Of a stretch of DNA of 64,000 bases, positions 22,789-57,453 are shown piece by piece. A program made the position numbers and the translations under genes. The notes below the pieces were generated by a model. That model had not been told where the DNA came from. It ran no database searches and saw only the letters and a list, made by a program, of their open reading frames with translations. Source of the DNA: Marasmius tenuissimus (Eukaryota; Basidiomycota; Agaricomycetes; Agaricales; Marasmiaceae); contig JAQOTA010000053.1 of the NCBI GenBank assembly GCA_029532415.1, positions 3,596,001-3,660,000 of the forward strand, written 5' to 3'. Each line of letters starts with the position of its first letter. The first letter of the stretch is position 1.

Positions 22789-22843
22789 CTGTCACTGAAC
22801 CATAAACGACAGCAAAAAGGGCTTACTATTCAATATTCAATGC

Positions 22844-25703: not shown

Positions 25704-26907
25704 ATGGCTTCTTCCACTTCGTCTCAGCAGGAAGAACCTCCGGAGCGAGTACTACGCTCTCACGCTAGCACTGTGGGGCGGGTGGCAGACTGCAGAAGCG
25801 TGAGTTTTGACGCGTTGCTCAGGCTTTCGAAACGGGACATCGCTCAAGCTTCATTCCCTCAAACAATCGCCAGCCAGCATGAGGCTCAACATTTGCCTGG
25901 GATGCTTAGTGACAAAATCGTGTCAACGTTTTCACAGATATCCCAAAAACAGTGGTACTTCAACTACCGGCGTCTTTGTCTGCGGGCGTTGGAACCTTCT
26001 GTCACATATCTGTATGCAAGCCGTCGCATTGAGGCTTTCCAAGTCATTCCGCATTCCGGGCAACTAACTTTAGACATATGGAGCCCCAAGAGTCTACTTA
26101 CCTTGTGCATTAGCAGTGCGTGGAAATGACAGCTCCTGCACGATCATAACGGCGAAGGGCCATCCCTTACCGCTTAGCCATCTGCGAAGGAGGTTTAGGA
26201 ACAGGGGGATTTGTGACTGACTTCCAGTGGACCTATATCTCTCATTCCTCGATCTCGCACTGAACAAATCCGGGACAGAAACTATTCGCGATCGTGGGCC
26301 TGACCTCCACGGGTCCGTCTGCATTCGCGGAACGGAGAAGCAGATATCTCAAGTGGTTCGGGAGGTTGCAAAGACGCTCGATAAACAAGCTGCATACACT
26401 GGGGTGAGCTGAAGGTTACCCGGATTTTTCCTTTCCACAGATGTTTTCGTCTTCTTTGGCAGAAACTGGGGTACTGAAAGCTCGGCGCGACAGTAAATAT
26501 TACGAACGACAAGCTTTCTTCGACTCTCTTACAGCGAACAACTCCCGCAGGACCTTATCTGGGAATATTACGGCGATCGAAAGCAACGCCTTAACAGGGT
26601 CAGTTCAACACATCTGGGTCCCCTATCTCATGTCCGTGAATGATCTGACGGACCGTTCGCGTGAAATCAGTGCTATTCGGTCACTTCAACTTCGTCTTCT
26701 CGAGTTTCGCGTACGCTCTATGCGAAGTACAGGACACCTCATCGGCGTTTGCGCCACAGAGGAAAGGGAAGTCCTGTTTTCGACGTCACCCGAGGAGTTC
26801 ACGACATGCTCGAAGGTATGCTAGTGTCTGCTTCACTGCTAGAGAAGCTATCCGTTGCCCCCATGATGAAGTTGTCAACCCAGTCCATCGGGACTCATGG
26901 TCACTGA
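25704..26907 (+). pseudogene. Long-family copy A (DUF6593-like), degraded
   Basis: First and most diverged of six copies. Homologous blocks keep the order of the intact copies: HLPGMLSDKIVSTFSQ, CEGGLGTGGFVTDFQ, SVCIRGTEKQIS, LIWEY, and the last exon with RGKGSPVFDVTRGVHDMLEGM cut short here as an example of the repeat core. In the short exon equivalent to ELGRWKF of copy C, the Trp codon is TGA (exon starting 26472). The acceptor before the VCIRG exon is also not in frame. First intron has a GC donor (CCGGA then GCGAGT). The last exon is still open, so decay may be fairly recent or splicing altered. Confidence 0.65.
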
Positions 26908-27641
26908 CGCGCAGATCGATCAATTTCAATGAACCACGACAAAGTAGACTTGATGGATGAATAGACAAACGAAGGGCATTTGCCTTTCCTTGTACCGAGC
27001 CTCGAAATTCACACATGAACCCTTCGGTCTGTGATGGTGGCTCCAACTCCCACGTCGACTTTGGTGTGATGCAAAGAGTTGTCGTGCCAGGATATATCCC
27101 GCGGTGGAGCAAGAACCTCTCAGGGGCTCGACTGTTGATTGCGGCATCTTGGAAAGCTTGGATATTAACAGTATGTATGGTCGTACTGCTGCGCGCGGAG
27201 TCTATTCGTGCTCAATTTGCGAGGCATGGTCCGAACCTGCTAACCAACTGTGATACAAAGAACAAATACAGGGAGCAAAGTCGATAGATAATCCGTTATA
27301 TGGATAGACGGTGGGGGATAATGCCTTTCCTTTTCAATTCACAAATAGAAGCCTTCAATCTGTGATGACGGCTTCAGCTCCCGCTTCGTTGTGACGCAAG
27401 GAGTTGTCTCTGCACCAGGGTGGCCTCTTGTCGGGCCGGGCAAGGATTTTTACCCTGCTGGGGAGAGTTATGGGCGGCACGATTAGCCTGTGGAGTATCC
27501 TTTGATGTAGGTGTTCGTCAATTAGTTACCGTGGATGCTAATGACATAGCTCGATTCTCGGAGTGAGAGAGGTGGCGGGAATTCGCGAGATTGAAAAAGA
27601 CGGTGCGAACTTCTGGGCCCTTCAACTTGCTTCCAACCTTC
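26908..27641. repeat. Repeat-unit spacer A-B
   Basis: Contains the block with GGTCTGTGATGGTGGCT near 27,025 and its relative near 27,355, which recurs upstream of copies B, C and D. It marks the duplication unit. No gene is supported. Confidence 0.5.
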
Positions 27642-28989
27642 ATGTCGCTCAAGCCAAAAGAAGACCCTCCAGAGTGAGTTTGAATCCTCAGTGTACCCAA
27701 GTAACGTACAAACTTATTTCCGCCCCTCAGCTACGAGACAATCGATGGTCACGGCAGCTCACCTCGGCAAGTCCCAGCACTACCTGACTCCGATGATCCA
27801 TCTGGTTCTGGCCGGTCTTCGCATCGACCCAAGCCTGGACCATCGCGCTCGACCGTTACGAACATTGTTCTAGCATGGGATGGGCAGCACCCCGAAGCTC
27901 ACCTACCCGGAATGCCCAGTGATAGCATCATGTACACCTTCTCGCAGGTATCGTCGAAGGCAATGGTACTCTTACCACCAGCATCGCAGGGAAGCCTCGG
28001 TCCGCTGTACCACATAACTGTGGGTGAGTTCTGAAAGCCGACGTCCCTAAGTATGTTACTCCCTGACTCCGATCGGAAGCCCCGAGTCTCTTCGATGGGT
28101 CTGCAATCATAACAAGTGAGTGGCGGATATGTATCAACCCAAACATCCAGTATAAACTAACACACATCGACGGTATTAGCAATTCGCGAGGGGGGGCTCC
28201 AAAACGGGGGATTTCGTAGCTGACTTTCAGTTAGGAGTACTCCGAATTGCGTAGCGAAGACCATGGAATCTGACCGTTTCTTCAACATAACACAGGGTGA
28301 CAACCGCCGCTTCAAGCAGCTACGAGATTGGGAAGCAATGGCGGCCGGGAACTGTCTGTATACGTGGAAAGGAAGTGAATGTTTCTCGAGCGTTATCGGG
28401 CGTCCCAACATCTCTTAAAGGCTCTAAATCAGAGCCAGCCGTGAGTACCAGTACCACTAGCTTGTTATTCGTTGTCTTCAGGTGCCAAATTGTTGCCAGT
28501 TGCTCGGGGTCGTCTCAACATCTCTTAAATCGAAGCCAGCCGTGAGTACTAGTACCACCAGCTTGTTATTCGTTGTTTCCGGATGCTAACTTATTGCCAG
28601 TTGCTCGGAAACTGGCGATTCAGCCAAGCAGTGAGGAAGCGTCTTACCAGTGACACGCAGAGGTCCCTTACATTTCATTTCAATGCAGCGGCTCGAATGG
28701 GAGTACGATTGGGAACAACGAAAGGATAATATCGCACAACGCATCAATAGGGTGAGTTCATTGGCTCATCGAGCCTATGTTTCTAACCAAGTAGGACGTG
28801 CAGTGCTATCAGCACGTGGCTGGTACCGGTCACCGCATGCTATGTGCGACATTCAGGCCTCCGAACAGTGCTGCACGCCACAGACCTCAGGGAACTGCCA
28901 TTCTCGATGTCACTCAACTAGGCCATCAGTTATTAGAACAGATATTGGTGTCCGCACTGATTCTGGAAAGGCTGGTGACGACCCAGTGA
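27642..28989 (+). pseudogene. Long-family copy B, probable frameshift
   Basis: Eight-exon layout as in copies C and D. Exons carry HLPGMPSDSIMYTFSQ, APSLFDGSAI, PGTVCIRGKEVN, GNWRFSQA, LEWEYDWE and the last exon with RPQGTAILDVTQLGHQLLEQ. In the fourth exon a run of seven Gs (28190-28196) has one base more than the frame of its relatives allows, giving an early TGA; removing one G restores GGSKTGDFVADFQ. One C is missing near the end (CCCAGTGA), so the protein stops five or more residues early. The fifth intron region is internally duplicated (28402-28510 and 28511-28610). It could still be expressed if an alternative splice site is used. Confidence 0.6.
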
Positions 28990-29503
28990 TTCTCCCGGAC
29001 TCACGTCGATCATAACTCACACACGATTGCACCTACTACATTCTGTGGTTATCATCGTCGAGTCGTTCCTGCCGATGCATGTACCGATCCGGCACCCACT
29101 TGCGAAGCAAGGAGACTCGCTGGATGGCCTGTACGATGGACGGATAACTGGATGAATTGCCTAAGTGATGTGATGGGTTGATTAATATATGGTTCTTCCC
29201 TTTTCCAGTTGTATTAAACGGGAGGCCCCTCCGGTCTGAGACACTGGGTTTAACTCTTGCCTTGTTGTGGTGCAAGAAGCTATCACAGAAGGTATTCCGC
29301 AGAATTAGAACCAGGATGTGAGGCCCCTTCCAAAACTCAATTGCCCTTTTCCAAACGCGTAGTGGCACGATCAGTGTTGGTTATCAGTTCGTCTTTGATG
29401 GGCGTTCTTGAGATCATTGGGGACCGAGAACTCGGAAAGGATGCAGTGAGCATGTGAGCCCTGGAAACAAAGCTCCCCTCCTTCCGACTTGCTTTCAACC
29501 TTC
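28990..29503. repeat. Repeat-unit spacer B-C
   Basis: Spacer with the same block order as before copies B and D (GGTCTGAGAC near 29,230; AGTGTTGGTTATCAG near 29,381). No gene. Confidence 0.5.
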
Positions 29504-30769
29504 ATGTCTCCAATGAACAGAGACTCAGATCCTCCCGAGTGAGTTGCCAAACTGTCAGCATACTCGAGGGCATGCATAACTAATACGTACTGCCCTCAGT
29601 TACGAGACAACCGTCGGTGGTGCAAGTCCCCCTCGAGTCTCACCACCACTGCCTGGTCCATCTCAGGCTGCCGACCCTTCGGCGCTTCGTCCTCAGCGTG
29701 GGCCGTCGCGTCCAATCGGGATTGTTAATCTAGCATGGGACGGCCGGGTCGAACCTGAATCCGAAGCTCACCTGCCTGGAATGCCCAGTGACAGCATCAT
29801 GTACACATTCTCGCAGGTGTCGTCAACCGCAATGATTCTCCTGCCACCAGCATCATTACTAGGATGCCTCGGCTCGCTTTACCACATAACTGTGGGTGAG
29901 TTAATTTATATGATGAACCCGACACCCTGATGTGGTTTCCTACTGATTCCTTGGAGCAGCTCCAAGTCTCTTCACTGGTTCTGCAACCGTGACATGTAGG
30001 TGTTAGACGGGTGCTCACGATTCAACTCAGATTACTCAAGGCGACATTTTAGCCATCCGAGAAGGGGGTTCCGACACAGGGGTATTTGTGGCCGACTTTC
30101 AGTGAGCTGGATGTATTGAGACTTGAGCTCAAGAGCCACAAACTAAGTTTTGGCCCTATGTTGCAGGACAGCGGTCACTGGCTATAAAGTCACCAAGCAG
30201 CCGGGAACTGTCTGTATTCGCGGAAATGAACTGGACCTAACTCAAGTGCTTTCGGGCGTTCCGGAATCTGTCGACCGCCTTGCAAAGAAAGGCCCGCTCG
30301 TAAGTGGCCGCTATTTCAGTACGTCGTGCCAGGGTTGATTTGTTGATAGGAACTTGGACGCTGGAAATTCGCAGACACGGTAAGAACTCGTCTATCTACT
30401 AGAAATAGAGGTCCGACACTATTTGATTGCGCAGGAGCTTGTTTGGGAGTACTCGAACGACACTGGGTCATCAGCACGCACCAACAGCGTGAGCTCATCT
30501 ATACATGAGCCTCTCGAGGTCCTGACCAGTGAATATTGAATTTTCAGTGCCATTTGGTGATCGATAACCATCATTGCACACTATGTGCGAAATTCAAGCC
30601 ACCGCACAGGGCTGCACGCCATGGACGCAAAGGAACCGCTATTCTTGACGTGACTCGACAAGGACATCAGATATTGGAGCAGATCCTGGTTTCCGCACTG
30701 TTGATCGAAAGAATAGTTACGACCCCAGTGATTCCGGACGCTCGAAAGCGTAAATCTTCCTTTTTCTGA
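29504..30769 (+). CDS. Long-family copy C, DUF6593-like, intact
   Basis: Eight exons: 29504-29538, 29600-29895, 29960-29995, 30053-30101, 30167-30299, 30350-30379, 30435-30488 and 30548-30769, for 284 residues. All introns are GT-AG and all phases match. Layout: disordered Pro-rich N-terminus, LAWDGRVEPE, LPGMPSDSIMYTFSQ, LYHITV, IREGGSDTGVFVADFQ, GTVCIRGNELDLTQ, LGRWKFAD, LVWEYSND, LCAKFKPPH, GRKGTAILDVTRQGHQILEQ and a C-terminal hydrophobic helix with LLIERIVTT. The second half parallels DUF6593 (YKWL, GLIGKAHPGYLEIF, EIFVTFIYVEKL), so I place it as a divergent, intron-rich relative; that placement is inference. Function unknown. Confidence 0.75.
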
Positions 30770-32276
30770 GTCCAGCATTGTTCAGAGATCCGGATGTGAT
30801 ATGTACGATAGTAGTGATCAGTGGCCCAGAGCTATCAGCCCAAGCCTAGCGAATAGCATAGTTAAATTACCTGGAATACCCCGGCATGAAAGTTGATCAC
30901 GATCTCAGCCGTTTCCAAATTAAAACTATAATCAGCCAGAAGTCGCACAATCAAGTCGCCCAGTGGGTGACTTGATAGTCTGCGACGCGTTGAACTGGAT
31001 AACCTGTCCGTAGAGAAGGTTATGAACCTCCCCAAGCACCAGATTCTGTTCTTATTCGTGTTCCTCGTCATCGAATCGCGCCCAGCCTAGCTGGAGGTCA
31101 TAAATGCGAAATGAAGGCCGCTTTCCTCCGACGACCCGAAAAAGGCGCTTGACGCGTACGTAATCTGGGGCAGAATGAAACCAATAGTCCTTTTTACTTG
31201 GCTGTCTCTCATGAGCTCGACTTGAATACAAAGACTCAGAGAACGGCTTTCAGACCACGTAACACAGAGGGTTGGTATCCAGAACGTCTGGGGGGTGTGC
31301 CGAGCGGAGACTAAAAAGCGGATCAAACCACGCGAGCGGTCGAATATATATAGATCGGGGAAATCTGGCGCCTGTTGCTCGTCCTGCAGACCTCAGCGCG
31401 AAAAGCCACTTTCCTCTGACAGTCCGAAAAGGTGTTTGACACGTACTTAATGTGGGTTAGAACGAAAACCACGTCGCGGACCCCAGGGAGCTGCCTTCCT
31501 GGATGTCACCCAGCAAGGCCATCAGCTATTGGAACAATATTGGTGCCGGCGCTGATTTTGGAAAGGCTGATGACGACCCCAGTGATTCCTTGGGAATCGT
31601 ATACGAGGCCATAAGCCGCACAATGCGCTCATTCACGCACTCTGGTCCTTGCCATCGGGTCCCTGCCGATGTATGCATCGATCCGACGACCGACTACTGC
31701 CTTTTGCTGGCCTTTTTCATAATTCTTCAGAGGGCGCCTCTGAAAAACCTTTGTTTATTAGGTTTACTTGGCTCGGAACTCTATTGGGACTCCAGTAGAC
31801 CATTGAGCGCCCATCGTTACCAGGAGCATGCGATAGAATTCCAAGCCAAACAAACAAAAGTTTCGGAAGCTCGACCTCTGAAGAATTATGCAAAAGGCAG
31901 TACAGTTGCGAGACGGATGGATGGATGGATTGATGGACGGATTGATCAATGATAGATTTCTCCTTCCTCAGTTGTATTGAACTCTGAACTCTGAACACAA
32001 ACCCTTTGGTCTGAGACGATTATAGCTCTCGCCCCATTGGAACGCAAGCAGGTATTCCAATTTCGCAGGATCAGGATCTGGGAGTCTCCTTTCACCAAGA
32101 CTCTACTGTTACTCTTTCCCAAAACTTTGCACGCCCGGGGAGGGATCAGTGTTGGTTGCCAGGTGGTTGTTGATGAGTGTTCTTGAGAACAACAGGGCGC
32201 TAATCCAGCTCGTAACAATTGATCTTGCGTGCCCTGGCGTCGAACTTCTCCTCCTTTCGACTTGCTCTCAACCTTC
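30770..32276. repeat. Repeat-unit spacer with broken fragments
   Basis: Contains a 3' exon fragment of the long family at about 31,475-31,600 (RPQGAAFLD-like, then shifted), two copies of a block (about 31,110-31,210 and 31,398-31,480) related to the promoter of the first MFS gene (34,240-34,330, shared TTGACGCGTACGTAA), a short GATGGATG/GATTGATG tetranucleotide run at 31,915-31,950, and the usual block upstream of copy D. No intact gene. Confidence 0.55.
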
Positions 32277-33525
32277 ATGCCTTCAGCAGTGCACAGAGAA
32301 GATCCTCCCGAGTGAGTTGTAAAACCATCAGCATACTCGAGGTATATGCAAAACTAATGCTTGGTGCCCTCAGCTACGAGACAACTGTCGGTAGTCCGAC
32401 TTCCCCTCAGGTCTCACCACCACCGCCTGGCCCATCCACCGAAGCTTCACTTCGACCTCAACGTGGGCCGTCACACCCGACCGGGGATGTTAGTCTAACA
32501 TGGGACGGCTGGGTCGAACCTGAACCCGAAGCTCACCTCCCCGGAATGCCCAGTAACAGCATCATGTACACATTCTCGCAGGTGTCGCCGACCACGATGA
32601 TCCTCCTTCCACCAGCAACATTACTAGGATGCCTCGGCTCGCTTTACCACATAACTGTGGGTGAGTTGTTTTGCACCCGACGCCCTGATGCGGTTTCCCA
32701 CTGAATATTATTACCTGGAACAGCTCCAAGTCTCTTCACTGGTTCTGCAACTGTAACGTGTGGGTCTTAGATGGGTCCTCATAGCTCAACGCAGATTCCA
32801 GAGCTCACTCAGGTCGATAATCTAGCCATTCGAGAGGGGGGTTCCGAGAGAGGGGTGTTTGTAGCCGACTTTCAGTGAGCTGGATATGTTGAAACTCTAG
32901 TGCATGAACTAAGGTTTGTTTTTATATTACAGGACAGCTGTCACTGGTTATCAAGTTACCAAGCAACCGGGAACTGTCTGTATCCGCGGAACTGAATTAG
33001 ACATAACCCAAGTGCTTTCAGGCGTCCCGGAATCTGTCGACCGCCTTGCAAAGAAATGCCCGCTCGTGAGTGGCCTACACTTTAGTGCGTCGTACCAGAG
33101 CTGATTTGTCGCTAGGAACTTGGACACTGGAAATTCGCAGCTACAGTAAGAACTCGCCTGCCAGCTAGAATCAGAGGTCCACTACTTGATCATTATGCAG
33201 GAGCTTGTCTGGGAGTACTCAAACGATACTGAGTCGAAAGCACGCACCAACAGCGTAAGTTCATTTGTGAAGTGACCTCTCAGGGCTCTGACCAGTAAAC
33301 ACTCAGTGCTATTCGGTGATCGCTGACCATCGCATACTGTGTGCGAAATTCAAGCCACCGCACGGAGCTGCACGCCATGGACGCAGGGGAACTGCTATTC
33401 TTGACGTGACTCGACAAGGACATCGGATATTGGAGCAGATATTGGTTTCCGCGTTGATGATCGAAAGAATAGTTACGACCCCCGTGATTCCAGAAGCTCG
33501 GAAACATAAATCTTCCTTTTTCTAA
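32277..33525 (+). CDS. Long-family copy D, DUF6593-like, intact
   Basis: Eight exons: 32277-32311, 32374-32660, 32724-32759, 32826-32874, 32933-33065, 33116-33145, 33201-33254 and 33307-33525, for 280 residues. It is the closest relative of copy C: exons 3 to 7 have identical lengths, and the unit is offset by about 2.77 kb. Main features are the same, with IREGGSERGVFVADFQ, GTVCIRGTELDITQ, LGHWKFAA, LVWEYSND and GRRGTAILDVTRQGHRILEQ. The two proteins differ mostly in the disordered N-terminal part and scattered surface-like positions. No lesion is seen. Confidence 0.75.
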
Positions 33526-34361
33526 GTCGAATACTGTTCAGAGACCCGTGATGGTGTGTACAATGGTAGCGGCGAGTGGCTCAGAGTTTCTATACCCAAG
33601 CTCAGTAAATAGCATAGTCACATTTTCTGGAATACCCCGGCACGAAAGTTGATTACGACCCCAGCGTTTCCCCACAATCAACCAGAAGTCGTGACACAAT
33701 CGCACTGCACCTACTTCAGTCTTCGGAAGTTCGCATCGCAGACTAGATGGCCTATGAGCCTCCTCGAGTACAAATTCTGCTCTCGTCCGTGGTCCTCATC
33801 ATTGAATCGCTCCGAGGAGGCCATCGGCGCGAGATAAAAGCTTTTCTCCGACCCGACAGGCCAAAAATTTAAAGAGGGAGCGTGCACAAGATCTACGAGT
33901 CCACCAATGATTGACAGGTCACTCCATCCTACGATCACTGACAATCCGATCTTGCTGACAATTCTACTTGAAGTTGAACGCCATAATATGGAGCAGGTAC
34001 AAGGTTAAGGCCAGAGAGTGACGAGAAATATTGGATGCGTTGTGCTGAGCCCAGAAATTAACTATGACTCGGGAGTCGGATATAGTGATGACCTGAGGCT
34101 GAGAGCAGCATGCTACACCCGTAGTGGCATATTGTCCTATTATTCAAGCTCATACAGGGGAGAAAGGCTTGAGGCAACTTGACGCGAGGAGGTTTAGTAT
34201 GTAGTGGGAAAGTCACTGGCATGCCTGCTCGGACCTGCTCGGACTCCGGAAAGGTATTGACGCGTACGTAAACCGGGGCGGTCAGACAAAATAGAACGAA
34301 ACCACTAGTCCTATCTAGCTGTCTGAGTCTCTTGGTCCTCGTTCAATGTGCCACCCCTTCC
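33526..34361. other. Spacer before the MFS pair
   Basis: First about 200 bp match the 3' flank of copy C (CCCCGGCAYGAAAGTTGAT). The last about 120 bp hold the block with TTGACGCGTACGTAA that recurs in the C-D spacer. No gene seen. Confidence 0.5.
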
Positions 34362-36466
34362 ATGACCACCATGCCTACCAGTACTCCAGAAGGCAATAAA
34401 GCTTACAAGAAGCTAGTCCGGAAAATTGACCTCATTTGTAAGTGCTTCGGGTTTCAACCACTGCTCCAGTTATCTTTTTTTCCTAATCGCAGTTTCCAGT
34501 CTTACCAATACTGACGATCTCTTACGGCCTTCGTACGTGGTTACTGAAGACGAAGATAGACAGTTATGGTGACGATAATGATACCAGAACTCTACGATAA
34601 ACTGGTTCTCGGCTCTGCGTCAGTTTTTGGGATCATCGAAGACTTGGTGCGGTATATGACTTTACTTTGAGAGTCCAAACTGACCTTTTGTCTCTCATCA
34701 CCAACCAGGAACTATCCACGACAGTGAACGGCGTCGTTTCCACTCAACGCTACTCAACCGCCAATGCTGCATTCTATTGTAAATCCGGTCTGGCGCGTAT
34801 CATTTATTCTTCAAGCTAATTGGTTCATTAGATGGATATATCGTCGCTGTACTTCCCATTGCACTATTGCTGCAGCGGTTACCATTGATCAAAACCATCT
34901 CTGCGTTGATATTCATCTGGGGGTTTATCTGCATCTTAACGGTAGTGGTAACATCGTATCCCGGTCTGGTTGTCCAGAGAGTTTTCCTTGGAATTGCAGA
35001 GGTGCTTCATCTTTTTGATTGACGAGCTATGGTCTATATCCATTCTGACAGTCATCGGTTTCCCCTGGATTCGTATTGATCACGTCGATGTGGTATACCA
35101 AGGAAGAGCGTCAGTACACGTCCCTTTCCTCATCATCGGAGTTCGATTGACAATCAGGCGAACAGAGACGTCGAGACTTGGCATTTGGTACTCTTCTACG
35201 GGTATCTTTTCCATGTTTTCTGGTATCGTCAACTATGGTATCGGACATGCGGGCGGAAAACTCGCCACCTGGAAATACATGTACGAGGCTACATCATCTG
35301 GTATGTGTGATACTAAAAGATATTGAAAAGGTACTTCTTCGCTGGCGGTTGGACTATTCTTTGGTCCCTCGTATTTATTACTGTTCCAGAGTCGCCGAAT
35401 AAATCTGGGCGCTGGTTTACCGAGAAAGATAAGGTGCTCCTCCAGCAGCGATTATCGTCGAACATGACCGGAAAGAGTCAAACGGGATGGAAGTGGGATC
35501 AAGCCTTGGAGGCCTTGAAGGACTTGAAGTTGTGGATTATGCTGTTGTGTGCCGCTGCGATATATGTCTGCAACGGTGGTGTCAGTGTGGTAAGTTGATC
35601 GACACATTCGAGACTCGAAAAAGTCTCAAGACCTTGATACAGTTCGGTGCTCGTATCATCAAGTCATTTGGATACAGCTCCCTCGACGCGATTCTCCTTC
35701 AGATACCAGGTGGTGCGATGACCTGCGTATTTATCTACATCGCCGGCTACTGCGCCGGCAGGTTCAAAGATTGTCGCACATACATCCTTGCGGCCTCTTG
35801 TCTGCCGGTTATGGCGGGAGCCATTATGATATGGAAAGGCGATTGGGCTCACAGAGCTCTACCTCTGTGTGGATACTATCTTCTCCCCACGTTCGGCGCG
35901 CCGTACGTCCTTATACTGTCCATCGCCGCGTCAAACGTCGCTGGAGGCACGAAGAAAGCGATATGCAATGGAATGATCTTCGTAGGATACAACAGTGAGT
36001 ACTCAGTAACGCGACTGCCTTGCACTGCATATTGAGCCGCACTTTGCTCTCAACAGTCGGTAACATCGTCGGAGGATATAGTATGTTCGGTCAATTCCTC
36101 CGAGGGTGTACCTTCTAATGCCGCAAAACAGTCGTCTTTACCGAGGAAGCTGCACAACATTATCCATCGACATGGATTGCCATCATTGTGTGCATGTCTT
36201 GTGCGTCCAAGCTATGTCCTCTCGGAGAACGACCCATCTGACTCCATTTCACAGTTGTTATTGTCGCCTCTTTTGCATTACGGTTCATGATGGCCCGCGA
36301 GAACGCTAGACGGGACAATCTAGAACGCCAACAGGCCCTAGAGAAGGACGCGCGTGAAGCTGAACATAATGAAAAGGAGTCCCGCAACACAGTCGTGGAC
36401 AACGAATCTTTCGTGTTTGAGGATCTGACAGATTGGGAGCAGGAAAAGTTTAGATACGTTCTATGA
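34362..36466 (+). CDS. MFS permease, anion:cation symporter type, copy 1
   Basis: Twelve exons: 34362-34437, 34500-34532, 34588-34646, 34709-34778, 34832-35001, 35052-35109, 35166-35280, 35331-35589, 35643-35994, 36057-36080, 36132-36200 and 36255-36466; 498 residues. Family signs of Dal5/Tna1-like symporters (TC 2.A.1.14): short cytoplasmic N-terminus, RKIDLIFLPILTI opening helix 1, QLYDK, RYSTANAAFYYGY, MWYTKEEQTSRLGIWYS after helix 4, PESP loop, GYSSLDAILLQIPGG in the second half, GGTKKA and a charged C-terminal tail. Such transporters take up allantoate, nicotinate, peptides or other organic anions at the plasma membrane. The substrate cannot be read. Tandem direct duplicate follows 2.76 kb downstream with the same exon plan. 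Confidence 0.88.
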
Positions 36467-37124
36467 GCTCGGGCCGCCGTATCCCTGTTTTTTACTCTGT
36501 GTCGATCTAGGAACACGAAGCTTATTTGAGAACCTCAACTTGCAGCGCGACCTAACCGCGTCCTTCGTCTCAAGGCTCTGACTCTGACCTTCTTGTTGAC
36601 ACTCATAATTACCGCACCCGGGTGTAGCTCGACTGTCATGGACCCCCACTTCCGTCAGTCGCAGTACGTCAGGACGCCCTCTCTTGTAAGTAGCCAAGAT
36701 CTCAACGCGCCGTTGTTGATGTTCATCTGTTGTCAGCAAGGATTGACTCAACATAAGGGTGGCTAATCATTTTATCGGTACGCAGAGCACAACTCCAGCT
36801 TAAGTAAAGGAAGTGTCTTGAAGCTGAACAAAGTGTGCGACTCGAGCCGACTCGGAGGGTGATGTCTGCCCCACCGTTGCAGGGTGGTCGAGGATTGGGA
36901 ACACTACTATGCAAATATCGGGCACGGGTTTAGGCAACGGCAACGCAAGGTAAGCCCCATGTCAAGTTGGCAGATATCAGAAATGTGGCACTAATTCAAA
37001 CAGGATTGCAAACGACACCAGCATCCCAACCTGAACCACAATATATTCGAATAGATTTTGAAACCCTTTATATCGGGCTACTTTCTGTCCTGGCTCGACG
37101 TCTCGTCGCCCTTTTACGACCACC
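36467..37124. other. Spacer between the two permeases
   Basis: 3' flank of copy 1 and promoter of copy 2. It does not resemble the promoter of copy 1, so the duplicates may be regulated differently. No gene seen. Confidence 0.45.
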
Positions 37125-39220
37125 ATGTCCTCCAGTACCTCGGAAAACGATAAAATTCACAAAAGATTGGTACGGAAGATTGATCTCATTTGTGGGTGCT
37201 ATTCCAGATTTGGAGTCGCCCGAAACTTTCTAATTATTGCTTAGTCTTACCAATTTTGACCATAACTTACGGTCTTCGTGCGTCTCTACTCAAGTCCAAG
37301 ATAAAGAGCCGCAGTGACCTTAGTGCATGACAGAAATCTACGATAAAATGGTTCTTGGTTCTGCGTCAGTTTTTGGGATCATCGAAGACCTGGTGCGTTA
37401 AATTGCTTCATTTTGGGGGATATGAACTGACCTTTTGTCTCTTATCGCCAACAAGAACCTATCCACGACAGTGAATGGCGTCGTGTCCACCCAACGCTAT
37501 TCAACCGCCAACGCCGCATTCTACTGTAAATTCATTTTGGCGCGTACTGCCTGTCGAGCTAATCGGTTCTTCAGATGGATATATTGTTGCTGTGCTTCCC
37601 ATTGCACTGTTGCTACAGCGTTTGCCATTAATCAAAACCCTCTCCGCGCTGATCTTTGTGTGGGGCGTGGTCTGCCTCTTAACAGTGGTGGTAACATCGT
37701 ATCCAGGGCTGGTCGTCCAGAGAATTTTCCTTGGAATTGCAGAAGTAGGTGGACATCCTGACGACCAATACGTACTAATCGTGTTTTGATAGTCATCAGT
37801 TTCGCCCGGGTTCGTGTTCATCACCTCAATGTGGTATACCAAGGAAGAGCGTTCGTATATGTCCTTCCCCTCACCCCCAGAGTTGCTCGATTGACGATCG
37901 GACACGTAGAAACCTCACGACTCGGGATCTGGTACTCTGCATCGGGCATGTTTTACATGTTCTCCGGAATCGTAAACTATGGTATTGGCCACGCTGGCGG
38001 GAAACTCGCCACTTGGAAGTACATGTACGTGTTTCTGTCGCCAGCTTGTTGTTTCAATACTCAGCGATTCAATCAAGGTACTTTTTCGCTGGGGGATGGA
38101 CTATTCTTTGGGCATTCGTGTTCCTCGTCGTCCCAGAATCACCCAATAATCCCGGGAGCCGATTCACCGAGGAAGAGAAGGTGCTCCTTCGGCAAAGGTT
38201 ATCGTCAAACATGACTGGCAAAAACCAAACGGGATGGAAGTGGAATCAAGTCGTGGAAGCTATGAAGGACCCGAAATTGTGGATCATGATGTTGTGCTCT
38301 TCCGCCACATATATCGCCAACGGTGGCGTCAGCGTGGTAAGTGAAACGATACCTCCGAGACTCATAGAAGTTTAAAGTCGTTGTTACAGTTTGGTGCTCG
38401 TATCATCAAGTCCTTCGGATATAGCTCCCTCGACGCGATTCTACTTCAGATACCGGGTGGTGCAATGACCTGCATATCGATCTACTTTACCGGTTACCTC
38501 GCCGGTAAGTTTAAGAACTGTCGCACATACATCCTCGCAGCCTCTTGTCTGCCGGTCATAACCGGGGCCATCATGATATGGAAAGGAGATTGGGCGAACA
38601 GAGCTGTACCTCTGATCGGGTTTTATCTTCTCCCCACCTTGGGGGCGCCACACGTTCTTATATTGTCCATTGCCGCGTCGAACGTCGCCGGAGGCACGAA
38701 GAAAGCTATATCCAGTGGTATGATATTCATTGGTTACAACAGTGAGTGTTTTCGGCGACCCGCCCGTCCTGTAATACATAGTGAGCCATACTTTCCTTTC
38801 AACAGTCAGTAACATCATTGGAGGATATGGTAAGTTCATTTGGTTCAATAGTGGGCGTGCTATCAGTGTTCTGACATCGCAAAACAGTCGTTTTTACTGA
38901 GGAAGCTGCACAACATTATCCTTCGACATGGATAGCCGTCATCGTATCCATGTCTTGTGCGTCTCCCATTCACTCGTGGAGAACGATCTATCTGACTTTA
39001 TTCCGCAGTTATTTTTGTTTCCTCATTTGCCTTGCGGTTCGTCATGGCACGCGAGAACGCCAGGCGGGATAGCTTGGCACGCCAACAGGCGTTAGAAAAG
39101 GATGTGCGCGATGATGAAAATATTGAGAAGGATTCCCGCACTTCAGTCACAGACGACGAATCATTTGCGTTCGAGGATCTGACAGATTGGGAACAGGAGA
39201 AGTTTAGATACGTTTTATAA
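37125..39220 (+). CDS. MFS permease, anion:cation symporter type, copy 2
   Basis: Paralog of the gene upstream, same intron positions: exon 1 starts at 37125 and the last exon ends with FEDLTDWEQEKFRYVL in both proteins. No frame lesion was found. Differences are conservative in most helices but sharper at the extreme N-terminus (SSSTSENDKIHK here), the PESPNN loop, the helix LWIMMLCSSATYIANGG and the tail. Both copies keep the HAGGKLATWKYMYFFAGGW block and the IPGGAMT and MIWKGDWA stretches. Retention of two intact copies next to decaying duplicates suggests selection for dose or for altered specificity, which is inference. Confidence 0.88.
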
Positions 39221-39465
39221 ACTCGTGTCTCTGTGTATACCTTATAGTGAGCGCAGCCGCGAAGCTTGCTCGAATATCCGACCGTGACCGAGGTGACCAC
39301 AAAACTTAACCGTGGTCCACCGCCGGTAAGTACTTAGTAGGTACGATACCGTGAGAACTCCGTTTATATGACCTGCGAAATTGCCCTGTCATGGTTTCGA
39401 TCATTTTGTATCACCGCCATGAATCTACAGGCCAGCTCTTCACACAGCATTGAGCTTTACAGTCA

Positions 39466-40571: not shown

Positions 40572-40805
40572 GTGCCATCCATTGTTGTATTTGTTGCAGT
40601 CCCTATTGCTCCAGCAAAGACAGACTGACCTACTTTGAACAACATAAGGAATCCGAGAACAGTCTCAGCCGGTGGTGCTTGACCGGGCCTCGAGGCAAAA
40701 AAGGTGACGCGCAACCGAATGATCCTCAAAATCGGTTGGCTGGCCGGCAATGCCTGCCCTCACTTGATTCCAAACCACCATCCGCGAGTCAACGAATCAC
40801 GAGTC

Positions 40806-41399
40806 ATGAGCAACAACCCACCTCCCTACACGGGGATACCCACTTTATATGACGAAACTCATCACGGAAAATGGTACATGCAACCTGAAGTAGCCAGCAT
40901 GGGCAATCTTGCCAACCTCATGGGTTACCTCGAACATCACGGTCCACACACCGACGGGAGCTTCGCAATCACTGTGGCCGGTGGAAATGTCACACTGGTC
41001 AGTAAGGTAGGCACTGAATCTCCGAGTTACGGACTTGCAGCACTTTTTTATTCAACATCTACTTGTAATTTTCAGAAATTGTACGAGTCAATCCCAGAAC
41101 AACACCGTCCTCCACTTGACACGACCGCGAACGTTCAAACCGTGTCTTTCTTGATGGGCAGTCCCCAACAAGCCCTTGGAAGCACGATCATGCCCGTCGT
41201 GCTCACAAACGCGACGACGGGACGGAAGTTCTGCATTAAATTATATGCTCTGGTGATGGAAAACCTTTTGATGGGAATGTTCATTGGAAGGGGGGATAAA
41301 ACCATCTTCGCTCGATCAATTTGGGAGGATGGGCAGGTTACATATCTCCTTCAGTTGGGGAATGAGGAAATTCCGGTCGTGCATCGATTACAGCGTTGA
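40806..41399 (+). CDS. Hypothetical protein, unrecognised
   Basis: Start chosen at MSNNPPPYTG; a 69-nt in-frame intron (41007-41075, donor GTAGGC, acceptor TTTTCAG) is likely because of its poor coding look, giving exons 40806-41006 and 41076-41399 and 174 residues. Without splicing the protein is 197 residues. No signal peptide or membrane helix. The stretch KLYALVMENLLMGMFIG has a hydrophobic pattern vaguely like the C-terminal flap of retropepsin-type folds, too weak to name. It follows the phosphoesterase by 235 bp. Confidence 0.5.
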   Translation: MSNNPPPYTGIPTLYDETHHGKWYMQPEVASMGNLANLMGYLEHHGPHTDGSFAITVAGGNVTLVSKVGTESPSYGLAALFYSTSTCNFQKLYESIPEQHRPPLDTTANVQTVSFLMGSPQQALGSTIMPVVLTNATTGRKFCIKLYALVMENLLMGMFIGRGDKTIFARSIWEDGQVTYLLQLGNEEIPVVHRLQR

Positions 41400-46275: not shown

Positions 46276-46443
46276 ATATAAAATGATAATAATTTCACGA
46301 CAGTGTATCTTTTCCCTTCTCAATCTTTTGTAGTATTCAGACGCGGAAACGTTCGTCTTTGCGTTCGCATTACCCTGCGGCATTTCCCGGCCAAGGCGTC
46401 CATTTGCAATCGCACTACTCCTAGTTAAGCTCTGACCACAACG

Positions 46444-47450: not shown

Positions 47451-47570
47451 CTTAGGCCTCCATTCCACATTTGCAGCTTTCCTTCCTATATCTCGACCGA
47501 TGCCATCGCGTCGCCCATCAGTATCGACTTGCGGGTTGAACACTGGAATTTGGCAGTCTGAGGTCTCGAA

Positions 47571-50053: not shown

Positions 50054-50268
50054 AGCAGGAGACCTTTTTCTTTGGCTATTTGACTGATGGATATTGACGT
50101 ACTTACTCATGACTGACCGACTGAAGGATCGTATTTATCGTTCTCTATGGGCTTGGAACCATAGCTAACTTATTTTTGCTGGAGCATAGTTCATTCCTTT
50201 GTACATCTTAATAGGCTCAAAAACAAATACATCAAAAAACACACATAACCCTCCTATTGCGAAGCATT

Positions 50269-51724
50269 TCAGTCCAGCCAGATAGCATGACTCCCTCCTT
50301 GCATCCTTTCCTCTCCTTTGGGCACATCGGAGGGCGTAGGCCAACCAGCCACCTCTTTCAAACCGCCGGTACCCCACCCATCCCATTCCAATACCCGCAC
50401 ACCACCTCCACCTTCTTGTGACGCAGCAAACTCGGAGTCGTCTGTGAGAAGCATCCAAACCGCTCCATCAATTTGACCCGCATCGTTGGCGGCGGCGGTG
50501 GGCTCATTCACCAGTTCCTTCGGGTACAGATCGATTGCGTGAGCTTTGCCCCCAGATGTCGGCATCTCGTATCGTTCCGTCTCGTTGGGGGCGACAAACT
50601 TGCCTCCGTCGTCCAACTTGAAGACGCTGACCCAGCCTTTGTCGGAATCTTTAGAGCCTCGAGTGGTGGCCCAGATAGAGTGAGGTGCAGGGTTCGAAGG
50701 AGTGGACGGGGTTAAGAGAAGGGTGTCTCCCCGAAAGCGTGATTGCTCGGAGAGAAGGGTATCAGGTATGATGGGTTGCGAAGAGAGGTAGTCCAGCGAT
50801 GTGGGGGTTATTGAGTAAGAATCTAGGAAGTTTGCTATATGAGAAAAGCGTTTTAGCTTGTTAGTCTTTCTCGGTATATTGACTAGACAACTTACTATGC
50901 TCGGTAACACAGTATAATATCCTGCCATTGGGATGGATTTTGACGTGTCTGGGTCCATCATGGGCGGATGGTCCGCGGGGAGAAGGCGACGAGTATAAAT
51001 GTGTCAATAACCCTGATGACTTGTCCCACTTGTAAACCTCTATAGAATCAGTACCCAGGACTGGAATGAAAGCCAATCCCAGGGAGATGGAGAATTCAAC
51101 GCCATGAGAGCCATACCGCTGTTAGTGGTTTGTCAAACGAGCCGACCAATCAAATCAGGGTTATATACTCACCAATGCCTTGCGTGTTTTGTCTGCCTGT
51201 TCCAACTCGTCCTCGGGAACGAAGAGTACTTGTTGAAGTTTATCCCCAAATCCCCCGTTGGACGGATCGACAGCGTGGACTTCACCCGTTGGACCTCCAG
51301 CGGAATATATGTGTGTATAGGGTGGTGGGAGAATGACATACGAAGACGTAGCAGCTAAAGTGATTAGTAGCTGAAGTGAGTCCTAGCGAGGCTGTCTGCT
51401 CAACGACGCACTGATTGGTGCCGCATTGAGATTATTGACCCTCCAGTTGGTCTCGTCGTCCTCATGACGGTCTACCTGCCAGCTATACAGTGCTGGAGGT
51501 TGTGCCCAACTAGTAGCGTAAACTCTGTCCTTTCTTGCATTCGTTGCCAAGTATTGATGGGGTCCAAAAGCATCGATTGTCTGTATCAACGAAAGCGTGC
51601 GTTTGAGAGGAGAAAACGCGAGAAGGAACAAAGATAGCGAGCGAAAGGACCCAGAAATGACGTGAAGAGTTGTTGAGGAGGCTGTCGCGTTGTTGAAAGT
51701 GAGAATCGACTGGGCCGCTTCCAT
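50269..51724 (-). CDS. Carboxy-cis,cis-muconate cyclase-like lactonizing enzyme
   Basis: Exons 51724-51412, 51354-51173, 51118-50896 and 50834-50269; 427 residues. Matches the fungal muconate lactonizing family (PF10282): HVISGSFRSLSLFLLAF, L-x-LIQTIDAFGPHQYL, RVYATSWAQPPAL, YIL-type strand then IYSAGGPTGEVH, RYGSHGVEFS, GPRHVKIHPNGRILYCVTEH, PHSIWATTRGS, and GGSHAIWLD at the very end. In the fungal beta-ketoadipate route this class cyclises (carboxy-)muconate to the muconolactone. It is divergent from a ring-cleaving dioxygenase at 225 bp, strongly suggesting that the two act in sequence. The lactonase-fold gene ends 216 bp from its stop. Confidence 0.87.
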
Positions 51725-51949
51725 CGTACTCGTACAGGAATCGAAGCTAGAGCTCGGGCGGGGCCCGGCTATCCGTTCACTTATAGGAAAAATAAGCGAG
51801 CCCCTAACCCGAGTGAAAGGTTTGAGGGATCACCCGGATCTCAACCAATTGCCGAGGAGGGAATTACAGGGAATTACGGATTGAAGGTGCTCCGCTCTTA
51901 TTTAAGGCCAATCTGCCCCTTCAACTTTCCCCACAATACAACTGCCACC
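51725..51949. promoter_or_regulatory. Shared divergent promoter of cyclase and dioxygenase
   Basis: 225 bp separates two divergent start codons. On the plus strand the start codon lies in CCACCATGG, a strong initiation context. A GGGGCCC-type GC-rich site near 51,760 and a TTATTTAAGG box at about 51,896 (roughly 50 bp upstream of the dioxygenase start) are visible. Co-regulation is inferred from the layout. Confidence 0.5.
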
Positions 51950-53335
51950 ATGGTGTGCAGGCGTTCACTTCTCTACGCCCTTGCTGCTACCTCCGTCGCT
52001 CTAGCACACAAAGAACCGAAGACCGACAAGGAAATCGAAGTCCAAAGGGCATTGCAGGCAGCCGCATACCATGTACGCGTGTTTCTTTGTCGTTTACTGG
52101 ATCCCCACTCAGACATATCTTCAGTGCGCACCAGCAGTGGCCGAGTTCACTGCTGCCCGTCAACGATCATGGGCTCAGAAGGTTCTCTCGGGTGCTAGTA
52201 CACAACTACCGGGTTACGATGATCTCTTCGCCGACCAAAACACTCAACAACGAATCGCCGACAAGGAGCATGATAAGACGTTCCTCGAATGCTCACCCGT
52301 AGAAGATACGAAGATAGAGAACAATACTTGTGTTCTCAGTGCGTGTGTAAAGTTTTCGTCGTATACGTCCCGTTGACCCGAACTTTCGACAGCACCTGTT
52401 GTGACCGAGGGACCATATTACCATACGGCCGGACACCTCCTCCGCCGCAACATCGCAGAGTACCAGTTCGGTCTGCTCACAGTGCGTTTCCTCTGAGGCA
52501 TACCCCTTAACCCCTACTTATCCGCTTCACCAGTTATTGGATATCGGAGTCATCGATATCGAAACATGCAAACCTCTACCCAATGTCCTCGTGGACATAT
52601 GGCATGCTAATGCCACTGGCCACTATGCTGGCCACCCCGAACCCAGGCCTGAACTCAGGGATGAAAAGCCTCAAGTTGGTGGGAAGCGAAGTGGCCTGCT
52701 ATCAGCATTCCCGAGAACGAAGCATGAAGAAACTTGGCTTCGTGGAGCGTGGCCCACCGATAGGAACGGTGTTGCCCAGTTTACTAGTGCGTTAACTGTA
52801 GCGATGTGCCGAACATATTTCTGACCCCCTCTTCTGTGAACAGCTATCTTCCCTGGATATTACACCGGTCGTGCGACCCACGTTCACACCAAGGTCTTCA
52901 CTTCGTGGACACCCCTACCCAATGGCACTTTCGAAGCTGGTAACCTCGCTCACGTTGGTCAGTTCTTCTTTGAAGACGAGTTGAACCTCCAGGTGGACAA
53001 GGTTCGTAAACCCTCCCGAACGTTACCCTGCACAATACCCTGACTACTTTTCGTCCTCGTACAGATGCACCCCTATACAACCAACCCTATTCGCGATACA
53101 AACGGCCGTACGCGAAACTGGCGTGATTCACTGAACATCTTCGAGGACTCGCACGGTCCTGAAGGTAAATATAACCCTGTCTTCAATACGCATCTCCTTG
53201 GCGGGATCCTCAATCAAGGTGTTGTCTCGTACATCACGATGGTAAGTTTATTTGGCTTCTGAGTTTCTCGATGACTGACGTCCTCTTCAGGGCATCAACG
53301 CCAGCGCCTCTTACGACAACTGGTGGAAGGGCTAA
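51950..53335 (+). CDS. Secreted intradiol ring-cleavage dioxygenase
   Basis: Seven exons: 51950-52072, 52125-52338, 52393-52481, 52534-52786, 52844-53001, 53065-53241 and 53291-53335; 352 residues. The signal peptide (about 1-21, LLYALAATSVALAHKE) and the dioxygenase core (PF00775) are clear: TEGPYY (first Fe ligand Tyr region), LLDIGVIDIETCKPLPNVLVDIWHANATG, FPGYYTGRATHVHTKV (ligand Tyr and two His), then QFFFEDELN and ASYDNWWKG at the end. It belongs to the extracellular fungal group that opens catechols and hydroxylated aromatics to cis,cis-muconates using Fe(III). In a wood- or litter-associated fungus such enzymes handle lignin-derived phenols. Divergent with the cyclase. Confidence 0.93.
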
Positions 53336-54499
53336 TTGTGGAGGTAGAATTCTTCGCAGTGATGTTAATGACGCGTATGACATGTACCTCTGTAAGGAAT
53401 AGGACCTTTTTCTAAATCTCCGGGTTTGGACCTGCATCGCGTTTAACTGAGCAATCCAGTGGTCCCCTCCGACTCGGACGCTGATGATGTCGATGAGGTA
53501 TTGTGGGGAGGTGGGCCCGGGATGGCGCGATTCGCCCGTGGCCGACGCTCGCGCACATGAGTCTTGGGCCTCGGTTGTTGTTCGAACTTTGCTCAGCACC
53601 GGATGATGGACGGAGCTTCAAAAGCGCATCACAGATTCAGCGGCACAGATACCTCCGTATACCCGACAGCCTTGGCAGAATGGGTAGGCCACAACTTTTC
53701 GAGTCTCGACATGTCGCGTTTTGACCTACCCTCAACCAGCTCACGTGTGATCAGATTTGATGTAGACGCAAACCTCCAACGCAGCACGTTTCTTCCTTAT
53801 TCTCCCTTGCCTTATTCGACAGGATCTCCGTTCTTGGTAGTCTGGTTACTGCTATTTCTGGTTTCCAATATTCTGACGCCGAGTCTTAGCTCTCTGGGTC
53901 GTCTCTGTGCTCGTCGACATATACACCGGACTCAGTATTTGACTGCAAAGAATAGCAACTTCACGTCTGAAAGGTGACAAGTCAACGTCTCAACGCTCAG
54001 CTTGCCGGACTTGTGGGTTTTGTCAATGCCAATCATCTCTGGCAGACTGCTTCGCCAGTTCGGGGTTCGGGGTCAAAGGATGCTCAAACAGGCCCTCTTC
54101 GTATATGAGGACAGGAACGGATACCAATGCTACTTGTTGGTATACCACGAATCAGGAGGAATTGATGAAACAATTCTTCGTGATGAATCTTTGGACGACC
54201 AGGCGCGACTCCGGTATCTCGCAGTCATAACTGGCACAAATCGTCGCGTTCACTACACCTCATTCAACCCATGGTAGCGACGGATTCAGGCTTCACCAGT
54301 CGCTTTCGTTTTACATCTCGTTTCACTTCACGTCACTCCTCACTATATTAACTGCATATCGGAGCACAGACAACGGAATCTGGCACTTGCGATGCATCTG
54401 AAGGCCTTTTGTATTGTCGTCTCCTCCCGACAGTCCGCTGTAGGAAGACCTACAATCGGTGCCATTCTTGGCCATTACGTGCGGTCCTGTGCAAAGTCA
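53336..54499. other. Gene-free interval
   Basis: Holds open frames at 53,564-53,977 (137 codons, with one hydrophobic stretch) and 54,002-54,277 (91 codons), neither with a family signature, Kozak context or intron evidence. I do not call them. The right edge carries the 3' flank of the inverted long-family copy E. Confidence 0.4.
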
Positions 54500-55688
54500 T
54501 TACTTATCGCCGGGAATCACTGGGCTCGTCACTATTCTTTCGATCATCAACGCGGACACCAATATCTGTTCAAGTATCTGATGGCCTTGATGAGTGACAT
54601 CAAGGATAGCAGATCCCTTTCGCCCGTGACGCTCAGCTCCGTGCGGGGGTTTGAATTTCGCACACAGTATGCGTTGGTCAGCGAACACAAAATAGCACTG
54701 ACCAGTCTACCTGATCAGATTCATGAGAAATCAATGTGTAATGAACTCACACTGTTGGTGCGTTCCGTTGTCTCAGTGTCGTTCGAGTACTCCCAGGCAA
54801 GTTTCTGCATAAATGTATAGTGAACCTCTGTGTCACCGATAGATTGACTGCTTACCCTTCCTGTGAATTTCCAGTTTCCAAGTCCCTGACAACGAATCAA
54901 TACCGGGGAAGGCGAACTAGATTCTACATGCTCACAAGAGGGCATCTTGTCGCAAGGCAATCGACGGATGTTGGGACGTTCGATAGCACTCGACTTATAC
55001 AGACAGTTCCTGGCTGCGTGCCAGCGACTGCCGTCCTGCAGCACAAAAAAAAAAAAAACAGAGCCTCAGCATTGAATCTGTTGTTGCAACGATTCCTGCT
55101 CACTGAAAGTCAGCTACAAACTCCCCCGCTTCGGAACCCCCTTCCCGAATGGCTAGGTTGCCGCCCTAGGTGAGTCCTGTTTCTGTTCATGAGAATCTGT
55201 CGACTACCTACTCGTTATGGTTGCAGAGCCATTGAAGAGACCTGGGGCTATTTAGGAGAACAGCGCTCAATGCTACAGCGGACGGAGCACATCAAGGGGA
55301 AACCACTCTCACCCACGGTTATATGGTAAAGCGGCCCGAGGCTTGCTAATGATGCTGGCGGTGAGAGTACCATTGCGCTCGATGACACCTGTGAGAAGGT
55401 GTACATGATACTGTCGTTGGGCATTCCAGGTAGGTGCTCGGGTTCGGGCAGGGGTTCGGGTTCAGCCCACCCGTCCCATGCCAGAACAACGTCCCCGGTC
55501 GAGCGTGTTGGAACACACTGCGAAGACTCATTGGAGAGCCTGGGTAGTAATCGTGAGACTCGAGGAGAGCTACCGTGACCGTCGATTGTTTCATAGCTGG
55601 GTGGTAAACATGGGTTATCGATGTAACTTGAGTACGCTGGTAGCTCAACTCACTCTGGAGGATGATCTTCTCCGCGATTGAAAGACAT
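54500..55688 (-). CDS. Long-family copy E, DUF6593-like, inverted, intact
   Basis: Eight exons on the minus strand, first 55688-55654, second 55596-55313, last 54697-54500; 261 residues. Same order as copies C and D: EHLPGMPNDSIMYTFSQ, APGLFNGSATIT, IREGGSEAGEFVADFQ, PGTVCIS, LGNWKFTG, LAWEYSND, LCAKFKPPHGAERHGRKG and HQGHQILEQILVSALMIERI. Compared with C, D and F it lacks about eight residues after VCI (the RGxELDLTQ part), an in-frame deletion. A run of 14 Ts precedes an acceptor (55,045-55,058). All splice sites are GT-AG. No stop or frameshift. Confidence 0.7.
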
Positions 55689-56160
55689 GAGGGTTGGAAG
55701 CGAGTCAGAACTTGGACTCTTGGAGACCTTCGATGTGAAGCCTAGTCACAGGCTCATGGATGATGGCACAGCGTCTTTTGCCGCGAGCTGTCATCGTCCT
55801 GATGACCTCCCGCTATATCATACATTGATGCTCAGCAGCTGCCAGCCTCAGCCTGTTGTGATTCCTCACGTTCATAACAGTCGGATGATCTGTAGAGCAG
55901 CCACTCAAATATCCAACGTTTGCTATAACGACTCTCTTCTAGGAGCTGCGGAAGTGTTGGCTTGACCCGACTACTTTCCAGGCCGCCGCGGTAAATGATC
56001 AAGCCTCTGAAGAGGTATCCATGATCCCGCCCCACCACGGAATATCATACGCGACAGCTCTTTGTATCCCAGTCGTGAGGTGCTAGTCTAAACTATTGTC
56101 ACAGACCGAAGGCTTTGTGTTTGACATCTGGATTTTAAGACAAGGAAAGATGTATTCCCG
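55689..56160. repeat. Spacer E-F
   Basis: Short spacer of the inverted pair. No gene supported. Confidence 0.4.
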
Positions 56161-57453
56161 TCAATAATCATCTCCCCATGACCGATGGTTCTGTGGGTGC
56201 TCCCGGGGAATCACTGGGGTCGTAACTAGCCTTTCCAGGATCAGCGCGGACACCAGTATATGTTCCAATAACTGATGGCCTTGTTGAGTGACATCGAGAA
56301 GGGCAGTTCCCTGGGGTCCGTGACGTGCATTTCTGTTCGGAGGCTTGAATTTCGCACACAGTGTGCGGTGATCTTCACTAGCCACTAAATAGCACTGAAC
56401 ATCCTACCTGGTCAGAATCATAAGGATTTCGAATTGAGTGAATCGACCAACCCTATTGATGCGCTCTGCAGTATCACCGTTCAACCCTTTTTCCCAAACG
56501 TATTCCCAATCGAGCCGCTGCCAAATGAGATATGGGGGACTGTGCGTGTCACTGATGAAATGCCTACTTACCGCTTGGGCGAATCTCCACTTTCCGAGCC
56601 CCTAAAAATAGATCAGTACCGGCAACAACATATCGAAGTTGGGGCTACTCGCAATTGGGTGTCTTGGAGCGTTGGGCTCGAGGGATGTCGGAACCGTGCC
56701 CCCCAATAACGCTCGAGCCAGGTTCATTTCTTTCCCACGGATACAGACAGTTCCCGGTTGCCAATGCTTCTGACTATTATTCTTGTTCGCGATAGTGATT
56801 GACGTCCTGAATCATGAAGAAACGATCAGAATTTATGACCTTCAGTATGTAGCTTGAAGCTCTCCTAACTGAAAGTCGGCTACGAAATCCCCAGTTTTGG
56901 AACCCCCTTCACGAATGGCTACATCGTCTCCACGAGTAAGCTTTCATGATTGTTCGATGTTGACATTCGTACGCCACCCACTCGTTATAGTCGCAGACCC
57001 ATCAAAGAGACCAGGGGCTTCCGGTGATTAGGGTGATGGTAGTCAGGAAGAAGTATGGCAAAGGTATTTGGCTTCAGCGATCTCACCGACAGTTATGTGA
57101 TAAAGCGGACCGAGGGATGCCAGCGATGCTGGTGGTGATAGTACCATTGCCTTCGACGACACCTGCGAGAAGGTGTACATGATGCTGTCACTAGGCATGC
57201 CAGGTAGATGGGTTTCAGGGAGTTGCCCGTCCCATGCTAGAACAACATCCCCCGTCGAGCGCGATGGTTCAGGTTGGCGTCGCTGCGAAGATAGGCGGGA
57301 TAGGCTAGGTAGCGTTGAGACTTGACCCAGAGAGCCACGGCGACCGTCAATTGTCTCGTAGCTAGGGAGCATTGAACATAAATCTGCACGTAACTCGAGT
57401 TCGCTGATAATTCAAACTCACTCTGGAGGATCTTCTCTAGGCTCGGAAGACAT
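56161..57453 (-). CDS. Long-family copy F, DUF6593-like, inverted, with GC-AG intron
   Basis: Eight exons: 57453-57422, 57361-57087, 57017-56982, 56918-56870, 56806-56653, 56601-56572, 56517-56452 and 56403-56161; 294 residues. Same domain order, ending LVTTPVIPREHPQNHRSW. The fifth intron must start with GC (ATT then GCGAGT, at 56652): all phases then agree, and in copy B the aligned donor is GTGAGT. It is closest to copy B in the N-terminal half (YETIDG, SKTGDFVADFQ). No lesion is seen. The GC donor agrees with the known minor GC-AG class, so the gene is probably functional. Confidence 0.7.

Follow-up and report, generated by a model that had tools for sequence, protein, structure and literature searches.

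What does a gene family that recurs at both arms of a single fungal locus encode? The locus lies in a stretch of 64,000 nucleotides (nt) from Marasmius tenuissimus (GCA_029532415.1, contig JAQOTA010000053.1, positions 3,596,001-3,660,000 of the forward strand), referred to here as the window, and carries an intron-rich family (the long family) beside canonical genes of the DUF6593 family (Pfam PF20236). The reading favoured here, to which a probability of roughly 40% is given as a whole, mechanism included, is that the open copies encode DUF6593 proteins with a predicted Tubby-like barrel and a PPxY-bearing tail, which may serve as adaptors or substrates of a ubiquitin ligase.

A DUF6593 family at both arms of the locus

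When the protein of copy E was used as tblastn query, the other copies were recovered at E 1e-11 to 1e-55 (copy A more weakly, at 1e-8), and the DNA identity to copy C is 81% for D, 68% for F and 65% for E; these values, far beyond chance, bear out the two-arm paralogous family proposed in an earlier, sequence-only reading of this DNA. The copies, spliced by homology and GT/GC-AG signals, are as follows, together with a miniature inverted-repeat transposable element (MITE)-like repeat.

25704..26868, plus strand: copy A, a decayed long-family copy, with tblastn pieces in different frames over 25890-26868
27642..28989, plus strand: copy B, eight recognisable exons, frame broken in exon 4
29504..30769, plus strand: copy C, eight exons open, 284 aa; the deposited PM082_008480 begins three residues later (281 aa)
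31460..31596, plus strand: seventh copy, a last-exon remnant in two frames (tblastn E 8.5e-11)
31710..31898, plus strand: MITE-like palindromic repeat between C and D, adjoining the remnant
32277..33525, plus strand: copy D, eight exons open, 280 aa, equal to PM082_008481 (100% identity over 280 aa)
54500..55688, minus strand: copy F, eight exons open, 261 aa, equal to PM082_008497
56161..57453, minus strand: copy E, eight exons open, 291 aa, with a GC donor at intron 5

Four copies (C, D, E and F) are therefore open, one (B) is nearly intact, one (A) is decayed and one is a remnant. Six copies with the same eight-exon plan had been counted earlier, which holds for the four open copies and fails for B and A, and the remnant had been overlooked. 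The intron phases 2,1,1,2,0,0,0 are common to C, D, E and F, as are the lengths of exons 3, 4 and 6 (36, 49 and 30 nt); C and D also agree in the lengths of exon 5 (133 nt) and exon 7 (54 nt), in agreement with the near-equal exons 3, 4, 6 and 7 noted for this pair from the sequence. GT donors are present at 27 of the 28 introns, intron 5 of E being the exception. Copy E is deposited as PM082_008498, a 116-aa protein that reads into intron 2. That short form is probably not the true protein, to judge from the open frame, the conserved splice sites and the constraint on the domain over the remaining exons. P0008, a deposited model from Marasmius sp. AFHP31, is short in the same manner.

Kinship to DUF6593 (model length 146, gathering cut-off 27 bits) was assessed by hmmscan against Pfam-A at E up to 10, a setting at which the HMMER filters still discard most matches above about 0.1. 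E (31.0 bits), F (28.7 bits) and C (27.2 bits) pass the cut-off and D (19.7 bits) falls under it, giving three of the four open copies, and no family other than DUF6593 is listed for any of them. All 26 aligned relatives (11 long, 15 canonical) match DUF6593 at E up to 10, the number above the cut-off not being stated, while five other families each match one of the 26 at E 0.15-0.59; precomputed annotation places DUF6593 on 9 of 14 long-branch proteins. Profile-profile alignment of the long and canonical branches (hhalign) gives a probability of 89.6 and P 1.9e-6 over 54 columns. The long family almost certainly belongs to DUF6593, and the kinship guessed in the sequence-only reading is stronger than was claimed; nor is it limited to the second half of the protein, as had been thought, since the model aligns to C-F from positions 13-15 through 142-143 of 146. 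Two DUF6593 proteins, P0002 (AFHP31) and P0009 (Marasmius crinis-equi), are deposited as ‘para-aminobenzoate synthase (PABA)’, probably a misname: no PABA-synthase domain is listed in the Pfam scan of the 26-member alignment that contains both.

Two canonical DUF6593 copies sit beside the left arm.

24461..25294, minus strand: canonical DUF6593 gene PM082_008476, 258 aa, two exons
22840..23661, minus strand: broken canonical DUF6593 copy, found by tblastn with P0015, P0016 and P0017 and by a PF20236 match

Neither is the single-exon gene that had been described. The 277-aa frame at 24461..25294 spans a 57-nt in-frame intron of phase 0, whose 19 residues are absent from PM082_008476 and form the sole gap in an alignment to P0015 that is otherwise free of mismatches. 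The copy at 22840..23661 contains two in-frame stops and frame changes, and its close AFHP31 relative P0017 has an open deposited model of 257 aa.

The intron of the intact canonical gene lies between the Y-x-W strand and the strand that follows. A scan for this intron took in 20 canonical loci, 19 of which supplied a total of 21 DUF6593 targets (the twentieth, L044, had no match to the hidden Markov model at threshold), with splice candidates scored by the model plus a splice-signal bonus and in-frame stops left unpenalised; a phase-0 intron at this place was the best candidate in 14 of the 21, the second-best in one, and outside the two candidates shown in six. Intron 7 of the long copies, also of phase 0, sits at the matching strand, one to two residues away according to an hhalign offset extrapolated past the aligned columns. 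Both branches of DUF6593 share a phase-0 intron at roughly this position.

Across the genome at least 36 exon-level DUF6593 matches were found, including tandem groups on C68, C19 and C7, so that gene clusters are nothing unusual in this family, and the one in the window is a local expansion of ordinary kind within a known family. Outside this locus the long branch was represented by a single distant relative (C5:1616166-1616923; L029 4164-5131, minus strand), counts of this branch being lower bounds. Read by eye, it has equivalents of introns 4, 5 and 7 with the same phases and lacks introns 2, 3 and 6; the small 30-49-nt exons of the cluster thus reflect either intron gain in the cluster or loss on C5.

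Predicted fold of the DUF6593 domain

A comparison of structures had been suggested along with the original claim of kinship. Models of the long and canonical branches, built separately, share the same best structural matches and have a similar strand order ending in a helix, and the predicted beta-barrel of about twelve strands around a hydrophobic C-terminal helix is the arrangement by which a Tubby-like fold is recognised. On these models the DUF6593 domain probably has a Tubby-like fold, an estimate tempered by the spread of the five models of C and by the usual background of Z. Foldseek alone against the PDB returned nothing below E 0.001 for either model.

The Tub, LOR and Scramblase models of Pfam are listed neither for C-F nor for the 26 relatives at E up to 10, and DUF6593 is therefore called Tubby-like in predicted fold and not a member of these three families. 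A profile search against the sequences of solved structures gave weak, unrelated matches for A3 (best E 0.034) and none for A4. Arrestin titles are absent from the 50 structural matches listed for either model, which excludes nothing. The Tubby-like superfamily is named as Pfam clan CL0395 in passages of PMC10584680 and PMC12095923. The LOR family proper (PF04525) is represented in the genome by a single match of 33.0 bits, at G000:C25:219202-219414.

Could the proteins be true phospholipid scramblases? The scramblases (PLSCRs) are placed within the Tubby-like superfamily and the N-terminal region of PLSCR1 bears PPXY, according to parts of PMC4725246 and PMC9158361, but hmmscan gave no PF03803 match within the scope described above, and an exon-level search of the genome, which can miss intron-split genes, gave none either; an enzyme of this kind is very improbable. 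A separate proposal, in which lipid would be bound by the basic loop before the last helix, was dropped: the loop is basic in C, D and F and is not kept in P0009.

The Tubby/LURP-one assignment turns ‘unknown function’ into direct tests, namely phosphoinositide binding and membrane localisation.

The PPxY tail, its constraint and the history of the array

Ahead of the barrel, C-F carry a tail of about 60-75 residues, which in the model of copy C has a predicted local distance difference test (pLDDT) score below 50 at residues 8-63, so that the PPxY region is predicted to be disordered.

29531..29609, plus strand: PPDYET motif in copy C, interrupted by intron 1 (phase 2); also in B, D, E and F

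PPxY near the N-terminus is found in 11 of the 14 long-branch proteins, those without it being P0005 (partial, start missing), P0009, whose N-terminus seems to be mis-modelled, and P0013 (Leucocoprinus). None of 24 canonical proteins has the motif, and on the coding strand it is absent from all 19 canonical loci (antisense controls were positive in 5 of 19). The C5 relative reads TPPVYSS, and copy A has PPER at the motif position. Shuffling of single tails yields PPxY in 1.6-5.1% of trials (six tails); the 11 proteins are related and so do not count as 11 independent cases. In the PPDYET codons all differences among the four open copies are synonymous; they affect four of the six. An unrelated open reading frame (ORF) at 40683-41399 (plus strand) has PPPY near a possible start and no Pfam match.

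The ratio of non-synonymous to synonymous substitution (dN/dS, NG86) for pairs among C-F is 0.18-0.33 over the domain, a pairwise average that may mask single selected sites. The tail lies above the domain in all six pairs (0.31-0.71), barely so in C-E (0.31 vs 0.29), with the caveats that some dS exceed 1 and that four of the six pairs have no YN00 tail value.

PPxY binds the WW domains of Rsp5/NEDD4. The genome contains 20 WW matches, three each in two long ORFs (on C20 and C28); the two strongest matches fall within these triple-WW ORFs, of which that on C28 continues into HECT (positions 2-95 of 306) and that on C20 has WW only. From what was computed directly (DUF6593 kinship, gene plan, shared intron, domain dN/dS below 1, conserved PPxY, and WW ORFs, one with HECT), the following mechanism can be envisaged. 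The barrel would dock at the membrane, either on a phospholipid, in the manner of Tubby domains, or on a protein, and the disordered tail, with PPDY or PPSY near its N-terminus, would be held by WW domains in a HECT ubiquitin ligase of the Rsp5/NEDD4 type. This would make the protein an adaptor of the ligase at membrane sites, or one of its regulated substrates. The PPxY branch also adds a test of WW-domain binding, for which the tail-less canonical members provide a natural control.

The same fold evidence would suit a regulator of Tubby-like fold, either lipid-binding or tethered to a membrane, in which the PPxY tail recognises a WW protein that is not an E3 ligase, or serves its own turnover only. 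WW matches do occur beyond the long ORFs, in two short ORFs on C10 (four and three) and on C7, C31, C14, C3 and C5, although the two strongest lie in the triple-WW ORFs, one of them reading into HECT. The present evidence does not separate this regulator from the adaptor or substrate, and it is held to be a plausible but distinctly weaker candidate.

Constraint and history also bear on whether the array has a function tied to its turnover, or any function at all. In the protein tree the copies pair with AFHP31 relatives: F with P0005 (91/90), E with P0008 (91/88) and the N-terminus of B with P0006 (92/92), with ultrafast bootstrap values of 91-92, all three pairs falling short of the tool's star (95 and 80), and with B and P0008 as partial rows; the tree does not order C, D and P0002 or the deeper lineages. 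From these pairings the lineages were probably present before the species split, and the array arose by local duplication, probably before the split from AFHP31. P0002, P0006, P0016 and P0017 lie on contigs of equal size (38,315), three with consecutive tags, pointing to synteny of the left arm. M. tenuissimus has since lost copies: B and the second canonical gene are disrupted in it, and the deposited models of their AFHP31 relatives, P0006 and P0017, are open. The local birth-and-death evolution proposed from the sequence is supported by the pairings of E, F and B and by the broken B, A, remnant and second DUF6593 gene.

Local duplication, decayed copies, looser tails and the DUF6593 tandem groups elsewhere in the genome would fit a fast-turnover defence or conflict family, in self/non-self recognition or antagonist sensing, with copy-number change itself as the function. 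All four cluster lineages (C/D, E, F and B) have an AFHP31 relative, however, and the low domain dN/dS argues in the same direction, subject to the averaging noted above; such a role is considered unlikely. Even less probable is a neutral or decaying array of duplicates without present function. Decay is evident in A and B, in the last-exon remnant and in one of the canonical neighbours: copy A has a frame change near 25.93-25.95 kb and an in-frame TGA at its exon-6 equivalent (three-frame translation), and exon 4 of B has 50 nt instead of 49, with an extra nucleotide in a G run where an assembly error is possible. B also carries a tandem duplication of 101 bp (1.8 copies, 28425-28608) that starts at the end of exon 5 and extends into exon 6. 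Against this, C, D, E and F retain open eight-exon frames, splice sites and constrained domains.

Surrounding genes and likenesses to known systems

The MITE-like element has 56-nt inverted arms that are 77% complementary, and 15 further near-full-length genome copies are present among the matches listed (77-82% identity). A Pfam scan of 20 neighbouring ORFs found a family for eight at E up to 0.001, and the features of the surroundings include the following.

1658-4282, minus strand: Transposase_21 (PF02992) ORF, 874 aa, E 6.2e-8
34678-39234: second tandem duplication, spacing about 2.75 kb, pieces 76-87% identical
Other families among the neighbours: MAP65_ASE1, AMP-binding_C_3, GNAT, Lactonase, Dioxygenase_C (below its cut-off), Fungal_trans and Methyltransf_2

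Three ORFs in the tandem pair at 34.7-39.2 kb, scanned as unspliced frames, have no Pfam family, and the flanking transport genes claimed earlier are thus not confirmed. A tRNA search found none.

A full-text search that covers few subscription journals found no paper on DUF6593, and none was found that joins Tubby C-terminal, scramblase and LURP-one; the predicted Tubby-like fold of DUF6593 and its PPxY-tailed branch may be new.

The closest likeness of the long branch is to DUF6593 itself, in the near-whole-domain model match, the similar strand order and final helix, and the common phase-0 intron; in contrast to the canonical branch, C-F add the PPxY tail and eight exons and lack a low-confidence insertion present in the canonical protein of the window (residues 51-129 of P0015). 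The LOR protein AT5G01750 (PDB 1zxu) shares 7-10% sequence identity with the DUF6593 models in structural alignments, with no Pfam LOR match listed, and the C-terminal domains of Tubby and TULP (PDB 1i7e, 1c8z, 1s31, 3c5n and 2fim) have no sequence match to DUF6593 proteins.

The PLSCRs likewise have no PF03803 counterpart in DUF6593 proteins. They are thought to have Tubby-like domains, as a passage of PMC4725246 puts it, and the proline-rich N-terminal region of PLSCR1 with its PPXY motifs, described in part of PMC9158361, gives a layout similar to that of the long branch.

A wider formulation, in which DUF6593 would be a fungal branch of the Tubby/LURP-one/scramblase superfamily and the PPxY branch Rsp5-dependent membrane-docking adaptors, ART-like in role and structurally unrelated, is offered as a tentative possibility. 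The ARTs (arrestin-related trafficking adaptors) are arrestin-like whereas DUF6593 is predicted to be Tubby-like, arrestin having been tested through Pfam scans only; the likeness to the ARTs of Rsp5 would lie in the proposed principle alone, an adaptor that brings Rsp5 to membrane cargo.

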